Origin: Rhodothermus marinus
Lineage (GTDB): Bacteria > Bacteroidota > Rhodothermia > Rhodothermales > Rhodothermaceae
Direction of reading: 5' to 3'
NCBI RefSeq assembly: GCF_009936275.1
Contig: NZ_AP019797.1
Coordinates: 177,501 to 241,500, forward strand
Length of the DNA: 64,000 bases
In this document: positions 35,738 to 41,165 of the stretch, piece after piece
Numbering within the stretch: the stretch's first letter is position 1
How the letters are laid out: each line of letters begins with the position of its first letter
Made by a program: the position numbers and the translations under genes
The notes under the pieces: generated by a model
The model's input: the letters and a program-made list of their open reading frames with translations, nothing else
The model's database searches: none
What the model was told of the DNA's origin: nothing

Positions 35738-36181
35738 TCACCGGGGCTGGCCCCGGTGGCAAAGCCAGTCGCCGGACGGAATCGGCCGCGCCCGCGACAG
35801 GTCGCCGTTGTACAGGTAGATCCAGGCCGAAAGCGCCCGGCCATCGGGGAGCAGTACGGTGTCCATTACGCGCCGGTATTCGCCGGCTTCCGGGCGCTGT
35901 GGATCGCACCCTTCGTAAGCGTCCAGATACGTGAAGATGCGGGAGGCTTCGTCGCGTCGGATCGCATACAGCTCGCCGTGCACGAAATGATCGGGATCCG
36001 GCACGACGCCGGGGTAAGCGCCGAGATCATACAGCCGTCCCCGGTAGCGGGCCGGTCCCAGCAGGTGCACCGCGTGGTGCAGCGTGGCCGGAAGAAATCG
36101 TCGGATCTGCCCGCGCAGCGTGCCGTAGACGAAAAGCAGCGTGACCGGCGTACAGCGTGGCGGGTACCACATGCGGCTCAT
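35738..36181 (-). CDS. Gamma-glutamylcyclotransferase-like protein
   Basis: A 147-residue protein of the GGCT/AIG2 fold. The family's signature substrate loop VYGTLR is near residue 19-24, and the likely catalytic Glu lies in YLDAYEGCDP. The family releases 5-oxoproline from gamma-glutamyl compounds, but many bacterial members have unknown substrates. ATG 36181 overlaps the stop of the GvpL/F-like gene (ATGA), which implies translational coupling; ATG 36172 is an alternative three codons in. It is the last gene of a three-gene operon and abuts sdhB tail to tail. Why it is coupled to a GvpL/F-like protein is unknown. Confidence 0.85.
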   Translation of the reverse strand: MSRMWYPPRCTPVTLLFVYGTLRGQIRRFLPATLHHAVHLLGPARYRGRLYDLGAYPGVVPDPDHFVHGELYAIRRDEASRIFTYLDAYEGCDPQRPEAGEYRRVMDTVLLPDGRALSAWIYLYNGDLSRARPIPSGDWLCHRGQPR

Positions 36182-37080
36182 GTTGCCGCTGCATCCGTTT
36201 CTTCCAGGTGCAGTCGGGCAAAGTTGAACGGCGGCGAAGGCCCTTCGAGGTGCAGTCGGATACCCAGCGCCTGATAGGCCCGCTGCAGGGAAGCCACTCG
36301 GTTTCGGAAAGCGTCGGTCTGGCCAGTGGCGACCAGGTAGGCTGTGCGAAGCACCGGACGTTGGCGGACGTCGAGCTGGTGGATTTCGCTGCGGTCGGCC
36401 AGTGCCGAGAGCGTCTGGTGGCAGTGTTCGGCCGCCATCTGAAGCAGTCGGTCGGCTTCGGCTTCGAGCGAAGGATCGTCGGGCCGCGTGCCGTGCACCA
36501 GCGCGATCGCTTCCTTCAGGCGGGCACGGTCGGCACCAAGCCGGAGCGTCCATTCCTGGCGGCCGTGCAGCAGTGCCAGCGTGGCGCAGAAATCCTCGTA
36601 ATTGGCTTCGAGCAGGGCTTCTACGTGCGCTTTTTCCGGACAGATCGTGCCGAAGCGCAGCGGCAGCAGCGGTCCCTCCAGCTGGAGGGCGGCCAGCAAC
36701 CGATGATGCGCACGGAGCTGTTCGCGCACCCATTCCGTGTCCTGCAGCCGCCGCCGGAGGACGTCCAGCCCATATTCGTGCGCCGGGACGCGGCGCACCA
36801 GCGCCTGCAGGTTGCGGAACGGAATGGCCTCCAGCGGTTCCGGCCCTTGCACCGAAAGGCCCGCCCAGGTGACGCCGTAGACGTAGTAAACCTGTTCTTC
36901 CGGCGCCGGGATGGGCTCCAGATGCCGGCCAATCTGCTGCAGGATGGCCTCCAGCCACCACTGCTTGAGCAACGCTCGCGCCTGCGCCAGCGCTTCCTGT
37001 CGCGAAGCCTCGGTCAACTGGAGGATTTCCTCTTCGGGAAAGTGCCAGCGCAGCGCCGGTTTTTCAGGATTCATCCGCAT
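36178..37080 (-). CDS. GvpL/GvpF-family gas-vesicle-like protein with N-terminal helix module
   Basis: A 300-residue protein. From about residue 55 it matches GvpL/GvpF proteins: YYVYGVTW at the first strand, the central PLRFGTICPEKAHVEALLEANYEDF segment, RQEWTLRL, and the C-terminal YLVATGQTDAFRNRVASLQ with GPSPPFNFARL. Those proteins are minor gas-vesicle components thought to nucleate or assemble the GvpA shell. Residues about 12-50 are an added helical module (PEEEILQL, EALAQARALLKQ, LEAILQQ), about half identical to one in the gene upstream. No GvpA, GvpN or other vesicle gene is in the window. The start (37080) has GGGAG nine bases upstream and overlaps the preceding gene by 17 nt. Vesicle function is doubtful. 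Confidence 0.85.
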   Translation of the reverse strand: MRMNPEKPALRWHFPEEEILQLTEASRQEALAQARALLKQWWLEAILQQIGRHLEPIPAPEEQVYYVYGVTWAGLSVQGPEPLEAIPFRNLQALVRRVPAHEYGLDVLRRRLQDTEWVREQLRAHHRLLAALQLEGPLLPLRFGTICPEKAHVEALLEANYEDFCATLALLHGRQEWTLRLGADRARLKEAIALVHGTRPDDPSLEAEADRLLQMAAEHCHQTLSALADRSEIHQLDVRQRPVLRTAYLVATGQTDAFRNRVASLQRAYQALGIRLHLEGPSPPFNFARLHLEETDAAAT

Positions 37081-37582
37081 AGTCCGATGCTCCCGGGCCT
37101 GATCCGCCGGCACGCTTCAGCCATTCTTCGTTGGCGCTGAGCTGCTGGCGTAGGTTTTCGATCTCGCGCAGGATCTTGCGGGCCCCGTCGATTTCGGCGC
37201 CGTTCTGCTCGGCTGCTTCTACAGTGGCCGGCTCAGGACTGGGCCGGGATGTTTTTTTTTCCGGCGCAGGAGGCGTTTCCGGGCGACTGACCAGCGTCAC
37301 CCGGGGTGTTTCAAAAGGGGAGCGCTGCGCCGGTTCGGGCTGCCGGGGTGAGGAGGTCGGTGCGGCGGCGGAGGAAGCCGGTTGGGCTGCTGCGGACCGG
37401 GTCTGCAGGCGAGCCGACTGCTCCAGAATGGCCTCCAGCATCTGCTCCTTGATGATGGCGCGCGCTTCGGCCAGGGCCTCGGCCTTCGCCTCCTCGATCA
37501 GTTGCTGAATCTCTTCGCTCGAAAGCTCCAGAAACCTGGCCCGGAACTGTTCGATCAGCCTGCGAATCTGTTCGTCGTGCAT
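37064..37582 (-). CDS. Helix-module protein coupled to the GvpL/F-like gene
   Basis: A 172-residue soluble protein. Residues about 18-60 form an amphipathic helical module (SSEEIQQLIEEAKAEALAE, then IIKEQMLEAILEQSARL) about 50% identical over 42 positions to the N terminus of the GvpL/F-like protein encoded next. The middle (about 62-130) is low-complexity, rich in Ala, Pro, Ser and Thr and probably disordered. The last part (ARKILREIENLRQQLSANEEWLKR) is a short predicted coiled coil. ATG 37582 has GGAGAG at good spacing; the longer frame to 37714 lacks support. It is the first gene of the overlapping operon. I know no named family for it; a scaffold or adaptor role is inference. Confidence 0.75.
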   Translation of the reverse strand: MHDEQIRRLIEQFRARFLELSSEEIQQLIEEAKAEALAEARAIIKEQMLEAILEQSARLQTRSAAAQPASSAAAPTSSPRQPEPAQRSPFETPRVTLVSRPETPPAPEKKTSRPSPEPATVEAAEQNGAEIDGARKILREIENLRQQLSANEEWLKRAGGSGPGASDYADES

Positions 37583-39960: not shown

Positions 39961-39989
39961 ACAATACACACCGGCCGCGTTTATTGCAA
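39961..39989 (-). promoter_or_regulatory. Sigma70-like promoter of the lytic transglycosylase gene
   Basis: On the minus strand, TTGCAA, exactly 17 nt, then TATTGT. It overlaps the last codons of the upstream gene and ends 38 nt before ATG 39923. Confidence 0.5.
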
Positions 39990-41165
39990 GGGGGACGCCT
40001 GATTTTTACGGTATCGGCGTTCGACGGCGTCGGTAAAGGCGACGGCCGGTTCGCTGTAGATATTCACCTGATAGCGGCGGAAGACCTCGCGGGCGATGAG
40101 CTGCGAGGCCTCGGCCCAGGTGGGCGTGTCGCGCAACAGGCGCAGCACGCGGAGGTAAGCGGAACGGTCGCCATCGAACAGGTGCGTGATGAACAGCTCC
40201 CGGTTGCGCAGCCCCGTCTCGCCCAGCACTTCGCGCTCCAGCTCCGCCGTGGGCGGCGCCGGCATCTGCTCGGCCGGGGGTTGCTGGTAGAACTGCATCC
40301 AGCGAGGCAGGGCGGCGGCTTCGTTGGCGGATCGGGCCTCGCCTGCGCCGGCCTGCTGCAGCTGGAATCGGCGCCAGAGTGGCAGAGCTTCCGCTTCTTC
40401 TTCGGCGACAGGGGCGGTACCCGGAGCCGATGGCTCCTTGCCGGCAAGTAGCCGCTCAAGCGCCTCGGCCGTGAGCAAGGCGGTGCCTTCGGCCTGAAGG
40501 CGCTGCACCAGATCCGGTCGCTGTTTTTCCGTGAAGAAGGCGATCAGCAGCGAGGCAGGTAGCACGACGGGACGTTCCGGCAGCAGGGTCGCCAGTTCGT
40601 AGAGCGGGCGCAGCAGGCGCACCCACGCTTCGGCGTCGAAGTCGGCCGTCAGCTCGCGGTCGACGCGCACGAGCAGGCTCTCGAAGCGGTCGCGCTCCAG
40701 GCGGGTTACCTGCTTTTCCTCGACGTAGAGGGCGACGGCCTCCCGGAAGTAGGCATAAGGCTGAAACCAGTGCATGCGGCGCAGCGCTTCGGCGGCCGGG
40801 ACCGAATCGGCCTCGTCAAAAATATGGGCCGTGAGCGTACGGATGGGCTGGATCAGATAGCCGGTCAGCGCCTGAAGGCTTTCGCCGAGCAATTCGGGCC
40901 AGACCGAAGCGGGGATGCGCACGTGTGAGCGAAGCCGGTTGCGAAGTTGCTGAAAGGCTTCCTGGACGTCCGGCGCCTCGGTTTCGAACCAGGTGTCGTC
41001 GAGCACCGGCAGCATGGTTTCGGCCCGGGCGATCGCCTGATGCTGGAGGTGGTGCACCAGTGCGTCGGGCAGGCCCAGCCGGCGAAGCTCCTGGATCGAA
41101 TAGGCACGGGTGGGCGGCAATGTCGCCTGAAGCTGGCGGTACAGCAGCCGGACAAATTCGGTCAT
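39981..41165 (-). CDS. Unknown protein with duplicated LPxWxxF motif
   Basis: A 394-residue soluble protein without signal peptide or membrane helices. Residues 1-240 are predicted helical, with many Leu, Arg and Glu (for example FVRLLYRQLQATLPPTRAYSIQ and RDRFESLLVRVDRELTADFD). A flexible stretch at about 243-306 contains the motif LP-[LR]-W-x-x-F twice (LPLWRRFQ at 261, LPRWMQFY at 286), separated by an Ala/Glu-rich linker. A compact helical C-terminal domain follows (GLRNRELFITHLFDGDRSAYLRVLRLL). I do not recognise the family. The duplicated motif looks like a protein-docking element. It lies between nadC (48 nt) and the transglycosylase gene. Confidence 0.75.
   Translation of the reverse strand: MTEFVRLLYRQLQATLPPTRAYSIQELRRLGLPDALVHHLQHQAIARAETMLPVLDDTWFETEAPDVQEAFQQLRNRLRSHVRIPASVWPELLGESLQALTGYLIQPIRTLTAHIFDEADSVPAAEALRRMHWFQPYAYFREAVALYVEEKQVTRLERDRFESLLVRVDRELTADFDAEAWVRLLRPLYELATLLPERPVVLPASLLIAFFTEKQRPDLVQRLQAEGTALLTAEALERLLAGKEPSAPGTAPVAEEEAEALPLWRRFQLQQAGAGEARSANEAAALPRWMQFYQQPPAEQMPAPPTAELEREVLGETGLRNRELFITHLFDGDRSAYLRVLRLLRDTPTWAEASQLIAREVFRRYQVNIYSEPAVAFTDAVERRYRKNQASPLQ

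Follow-up and report, generated by a model that had tools for sequence, protein, structure and literature searches.

In the heat-loving bacterium Rhodothermus marinus, the gene of a GvpL/F-like protein (P0001) and the gene upstream of it (P0002) overlap in one operon, their products share a helical module, and the complete genome carrying them has no match to the gas-vesicle shell protein GvpA. The reading we favour, at somewhat below even confidence, is a GvpL/F system independent of gas vesicles, in which the domain has kept a helix-binding job and its client is the helical module, provided in trans or fused to it. A factor known from gas-vesicle assembly would then serve in the building or management of a different structure. 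The window, i.e., the whole stretch of DNA analyzed, comprises 64,000 nucleotides, and its features relevant here are the following:

37064-37582, minus strand: P0002, upstream module protein of 172 amino acids, with an N-terminal helix, a low-confidence and probably disordered linker and a C-terminal helix
37403-37582, minus strand: helical module of P0002, residues 1-60 (profile, relatives, AlphaFold2)
37271-37309, minus strand: linear motif TPRVTLVSRPETP in the P0002 linker, seen by eye in 7 of 7 Rhodothermus rows
37106-37219, minus strand: C-terminal helix of P0002, residues 122-159 (AlphaFold2 and relatives)
37064-37080, minus strand: 17-nt overlap of the P0002 stop and the P0001 start (gene coordinates)
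36178-37080, minus strand: P0001, GvpL/F-like protein of 300 amino acids (PF06386 match and fold)
36925-37032, minus strand: truncated module copy at the P0001 N terminus, residues 17-52 (BLASTP, module profile)
36217-36888, minus strand: GvpL/F domain of P0001, residues 65-288 (PF06386; Foldseek top matches 6l5d and 4qsg)
35738-36181, minus strand: GGACT (AIG2-like) gene; if its start is placed as here, the ATG shares 4 nt with the GvpL/F stop

The 17-nt gene overlap reported in a preliminary description of this DNA was found again, and in the more distant Rhodothermus genome G001 the two genes overlap by 4 nt. A GGAG-like stretch precedes both starts (by eye), and a scan for sigma-70-type promoters found none. 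The GGACT gene is present at this place in six of the seven Rhodothermus genomes and absent from G001 (L063). Since it was not seen among the reading frames listed for the loci of Roseithermus and of the sister family f8 either, it is probably a later addition. In the window, and by eye also in G001, Roseithermus, G013, and G034, the operon is flanked by a LysM transglycosylase-type gene on its upstream side and by sdh genes on its downstream side, and the same genes are found by eye on the respective contigs in G025, where the operon is split over two. No genomic neighbor points to a biological role of the system. One neighbor in the window (39984-41165) encodes a protein without a Pfam match at E 0.001, and proteins resembling it by eye are located near the operon in G001, G013, and G025.

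Residues 65-288 of P0001 match the Pfam family PF06386 (GvpL_GvpF) with an E-value of 1.7e-37 and 130 bits against a cut-off of 23.6, covering profile positions 2-244 of 245. The GvpF crystal structures 4qsg and 6l5d were missed by a plain sequence search with P0001 alone but were both reached by a profile built from its relatives (E 4.8e-12 and 2.4e-11, respectively). The top three Foldseek matches of the P0001 AlphaFold2 model are GvpF crystal structures (E 7e-10 to 2e-8), with an rmsd near 14 Å and TM-scores of 0.3-0.4 over both domains at a model pLDDT of 69. The NCBIfam equivalogs for GvpL and for cyanobacterial GvpF were not reached (27.3 bits vs. 200 and 24.5 vs. 350). By profile and fold the domain thus resembles GvpF and GvpL of gas-vesicle clusters, whereas the protein differs from them in its additional N-terminal helical module, in the module protein encoded in the same operon and in a genome without GvpA or GvpK match. 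The earlier statement that such a module is not typical of known GvpL/F proteins holds for the 38 proteins grouped as gas-vesicle type: none of them shows it, and a median of about 24 residues lies ahead of their matched domain. A plasmid origin was rejected, as P0001 matches 1 of 72,556 plasmid records at E 1e-3 (Nonomuraea, 11.9 Mb, 28.8% identity), and so was a phage origin, as none of 397 pattern matches of the module in viral contigs was confirmed. A PADLOC search for defense systems gave no match up to E 0.1.

The module itself was recognized by a gapless BLASTP alignment of P0001 residues 17-52 with P0002 residues 23-58, which contains 21 identities in 36 positions (E 0.004 for the pair). 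The 21 identities counted earlier are thereby recovered, while the aligned length is 36 and not 42 positions. Among the relatives, the module follows the consensus EEIxxxIxEARxEALAEAKAxLKERMLxAILExA. P0002 matches no Pfam or NCBIfam family above cut-off, the best match of the module in the PDB by sequence has an E-value of 0.4, and no resemblance to GvpA was found.

The operon is conserved in seven Rhodothermus genomes, Roseithermus, and three genomes of f8, and it occurs in two organizations. In the seven Rhodothermus genomes, one module protein precedes GvpL/F, with the GGACT gene next in six of them. In the second organization, two or three module proteins precede GvpL/F. Roseithermus sacchariphilus (CP030158.1; G012) encodes a 62-residue protein, which is little beyond the module, and a 251-residue protein consisting of module, linker and C-terminal helix. 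The three f8 genomes encode module proteins of 76-77, 82-93, and 138-142 amino acids; in G025, where the operon runs across two contigs, the longest module frame is cut by the contig end. The C-terminal helix of P0002 is common to the longest small protein of Roseithermus and f8, and a profile of this helix matches only its own six source proteins. Further conserved stretches were noticed in f8. The first small module protein terminates with LIVDE(Q/H) and two or three further residues, the second with SGGTWFQPQPS(L/M) (L057 7259-7510, L058 10241-10522, L059 9534-9782), and the GvpL/F proteins have a common starting stretch W-L-x-x-PSL.

A third organization was identified in families f2, f4, f6, and f11, in which one protein of about 700-1,900 amino acids carries GvpL/F at its C terminus, preceded by an N-terminal helical region, with a 44-residue repeat in most, and by a linker that is often acidic. 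Small module genes were not found in these four families. A 14th giant (L088, family f13) was counted for its long acidic N terminus and shows neither repeat nor module. Nine of the 11 giants analyzed have their strongest sequence lag at 44 residues (weakly in L081), L084 has it at 45 and L077 at 52, narrowly above 44; in L062 the repeat units align in a fixed 44-residue register. In 12 of 13 giants the helical region opens, by eye, with an A-K/R-…-K stretch like the module core, which is looser in L084. The module profile matches the first and last units in L062, both units in L076 and the first unit in each of L080 and L089 with E-values of 3e-4 to 0.06, so that 4 of 14 giants lie under E 0.5. 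In the opposite direction, a profile of the 44-residue repeat recovers none of the Rhodothermus modules at E≤0.01, so that a homology of module and repeat is suggested by these module-profile matches.

GvpC, the outer helical-repeat protein of gas vesicles, has a repeat length of 33. The giants share with it arrays of amphipathic helical repeats with a length that is a multiple of 11 (44 vs. 33), but their repeats are joined to GvpL/F, and no shell gene was found that they could coat. A Pfam scan of three giants yielded no GvpC match up to E 0.5, and GvpC-like repeats were rejected as an explanation.

In the literature consulted, GvpL/F serves gas vesicles as an accessory protein, and work on its precise role is still under way. 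In one study, GvpF is the only partner found for haloarchaeal GvpA, a GvpA fragment of the first 22 residues (helix α1) gave the highest signal with GvpF, and the GvpL site in GvpM is the N-terminal 25 residues (PMC7688916). According to the same text, GvpF binding depends also on GvpA residues in β1, β2, and loops, so GvpF seems to hold more than a helix. In another study, GvpF is proposed as a chaperone of GvpA2 (PMC11445434).

In gas vesicles, GvpL/F would thus hold N-terminal helical parts of shell-type proteins and bring them into assembly. Because the domain described here occurs in genomes lacking a GvpA match and has a conserved helix next to it or fused to it, it most simply keeps this helix-holding with another client. 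The new client would be the 60-residue helical module, which the small upstream protein or proteins provide in trans, while GvpL/F carries a shortened copy in cis at its own N terminus. Module proteins and GvpL/F may co-assemble into a helical bundle, a coat or a filament, with GvpL/F acting as chaperone, cap or nucleator of the module assembly, and the linker and C-terminal helix of P0002 might tie it to a further partner. In the sister families, the same design would be realized as one polypeptide, with the helical N-terminal region joined to GvpL/F. Helix binding, co-assembly and an assembly function are what we infer from these arrangements. P0001 and P0002 may bind each other or a common partner, as was proposed earlier from the sequence, given that they have a helix in common, that their genes overlap and that helical repeats are joined to GvpL/F in sister families. 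AlphaFold2 predicts P0002 as a helix (residues 2-66), a low-confidence linker and a second helix (122-159), with the module as one helix of pLDDT >90. The monomer model of P0001 places the module with low confidence (blocks of pLDDT 40-55) and does not clearly dock it on the domain.

A different role for GvpL/F, which we consider unlikely, is that module and 44-residue repeats form a surface or membrane coat of amphipathic helices on lipid, a granule or the envelope, and that GvpL/F only clusters them. The tandem helical repeats would suit such a coat, as the hydrophobic period is most pronounced at 3.66-3.68 residues in 8 of the 11 giants (4.38-4.42 in the other three), but the period of the small modules is near 3.9 and not 3.67. 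The giants L062, L076-L086, and L089 are sited elsewhere in the genome than the operon, beside aldehyde dehydrogenase-type and permease genes in 13 of 13 loci (one of each was scanned, giving Aldedh and FtsX/MacB_PCD). In all 13 the permease gene directly follows the giant gene in the same direction, which would also fit an envelope location. However, the operon type, between the LysM transglycosylase and sdh genes, shares no envelope partner with them, and the permease link may be accidental, since synteny around the giants is conserved in general; a conserved functional neighbor of the giants was rejected for this reason.

Further evidence comes from a tree of 63 GvpL/F domains, in which the label GV covers every domain left outside the other groups, among them L087 of G098, a genome without GvpA match. 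The domains of Rhodothermus and the other operon-type genomes group with a support of 96/97. Together with 12 of the 14 giants, the operon-type domains form one group (93/88), which contains no gas-vesicle copy. The giants themselves are not one group (two changes), and L076 and L088 are unplaced. The split of GV from the remaining domains appears in the best tree with a weak support of 57/55. Seven families (f1, f2, f4, f6, f7, f8, and f11) have one GvpL/F per sampled genome, present in G104 as two pieces of one frame, and split and fused types were therefore not seen together in them.

Distant single-copy GvpL/F proteins were also observed in other families of the phylum (L141 4314-5645, L142 4574-6259, L143 4108-5565, L144 4476-5705, and L145 4157-5605). 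Like the giants, they carry GvpL/F after a long N terminus, and all five genomes are without GvpA match. They differ in that none of the five matches the module, that the tree sets them apart on a separate long branch and that, at the four loci L141, L142, L144, and L145, no small module genes were seen among the listed neighbors. They perhaps represent a second gas-vesicle-free use of GvpL/F, and because their genomes are without GvpA match, such use may extend beyond this order.

Both P0001 and P0002 are under purifying selection, with dN/dS well below 1. The window was compared with six other Rhodothermus sequences, and the values are rough, as many dS values exceed 1 and are saturated. In P0002, the module has a dN/dS of 0.03-0.17 and the remainder one of 0-0.33; the GvpL/F domain has 0.12-0.15 (five of six comparisons measurable). 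For the P0001 module it is 0.10-0.24 in four of six comparisons, 0.59 in one near-identical pair and not measurable in another. Within P0002, constraint is stronger on the module than on the remainder in the four more distant of the six comparisons, but not in the two closest.

This selection on both genes is unlike the decay expected if P0001 were a lone relic of a gas-vesicle cluster that has since disappeared, retained for general chaperone or stress functions next to an upstream gene that shares a helix with it without joint function. GvpL/F is otherwise known from gas vesicles, and G098 shows that a lone copy grouping with gas-vesicle copies occurs in a genome without GvpA match. Nevertheless, the organized variation across families, with one, two or three module proteins and fusions, also speaks against decay, as does the way the domains group in the tree, and a relic seems improbable to us. 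A maintained GvpL/F system working on the module is the reading preferred here.

The absence of gas-vesicle genes was assessed with Pfam profiles. The genome of the window is a single contig of 3.43 Mb, rated 100% complete, with one GvpL/F and no match to PF00741 (GvpA type); the preliminary description had seen no shell gene in the window, and none was found elsewhere in the genome. Across the class, PF00741 was positive in 5 of 195 genomes and GvpL/F was found in 40 of 195, of which four also have GvpA, leaving 36 of 40 without a GvpA match; this absence is less sure in the class sample than in the own genome, as some genomes are incomplete. PF05121 (GvpK) matched none of ten genomes of this type, the own genome included, versus two of two gas-vesicle genomes. 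PF05120 (GvpG) gave matches of 27-29 positions below the cut-off in three of the ten, again including the own genome, and matches above it in both gas-vesicle genomes. A use of GvpL/F outside gas vesicles, as suggested earlier, gains support from the own genome and from the 36 class genomes. That P0001 is instead an accessory protein of a cluster hidden elsewhere in the genome would agree with the description of GvpL/F as a gas-vesicle protein in the literature excerpts, but is very improbable given the complete genome without PF00741 match, the contrast in GvpK and the partial GvpG matches. The rejection reaches as far as the GvpA, GvpK and GvpG profiles do, which a highly divergent shell protein would escape.

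Several searches addressed whether the module is more than a coiled coil of common composition. With P0002 as query, 40 whole genomes were searched and matches counted in 11. Apart from P0002 itself, the only match in the own genome is the N-terminal part of the GvpL/F gene (E 6.0e-6). The corresponding match was obtained in Roseithermus (E 6.4e-6) and in every further Rhodothermus genome except G001 (five of six, E 4.9e-7 to 5.8e-5). A match in G016 (E 9.7e-4) was removed from the count, being in our own reading a coiled-coil frame beside a lysozyme-like frame; by eye, this site (L061 6905-7453) is perhaps a phage lysis cassette.

An HMM of the module was built from 11 small-protein rows without any GvpL/F row and run against 4,303 reading frames from locus neighborhoods rather than whole proteomes (loci L056-L063, L072-L091, L140-L153, and the window), with a frame for the L056 GvpL/F that starts too far upstream. 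At E<0.5 it matched 23 frames, namely 13 small module proteins, two of them outside its training set, and 10 GvpL/F proteins, and no protein outside this family. An alignment including GvpL/F rows matched in 7 of 394 genomes of the phylum, two to three times each and always in this operon, and a scan of genome contigs with it gave four loci, including CP030158.1. The profile search proposed in the preliminary description therefore picks out this family rather than a generic coiled-coil composition. In addition, residues 1-60 of P0001 score 40.9 bits against the HMM, and the best of their shuffles keeping the hydrophobic/polar pattern (5,000 made, 4,867 scored) reaches 20.3 bits. That the likeness is chance or generic coiled-coil similarity between neighboring proteins is hardly credible, since the richness of the module in Glu, Ala, and Leu and the weak G016 match, which shows that such matches happen, stand against 23 frames all within the family and 0 of 4,867 shuffles at the P0001 score; a generic coiled coil was rejected on the P0002 genome searches and the HMM specificity.

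The system extends beyond what was first noted: relatives encode two or three small module proteins, and giant repeat proteins also occur, in most cases built on a 44-residue unit. In the literature searched, no title or abstract beginning describes such a system (for some topics, the best 15 of 40 or the best 8 of 51 were considered; preprints and most subscription journals were outside the scope). It is possible, though doubtful, that an assembly of helical modules or 44-residue repeats organized by GvpL/F extends across much of the Rhodothermus order as a previously undescribed system, either an offshoot or a survivor of the role that GvpL/F had before gas vesicles. A GvpL/F annotation by itself is no sign of gas vesicles. 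The shell-less lineage would offer a minimal two-gene system, in which a helix-binding or nucleating role of GvpL/F can be tested without the hydrophobic GvpA.
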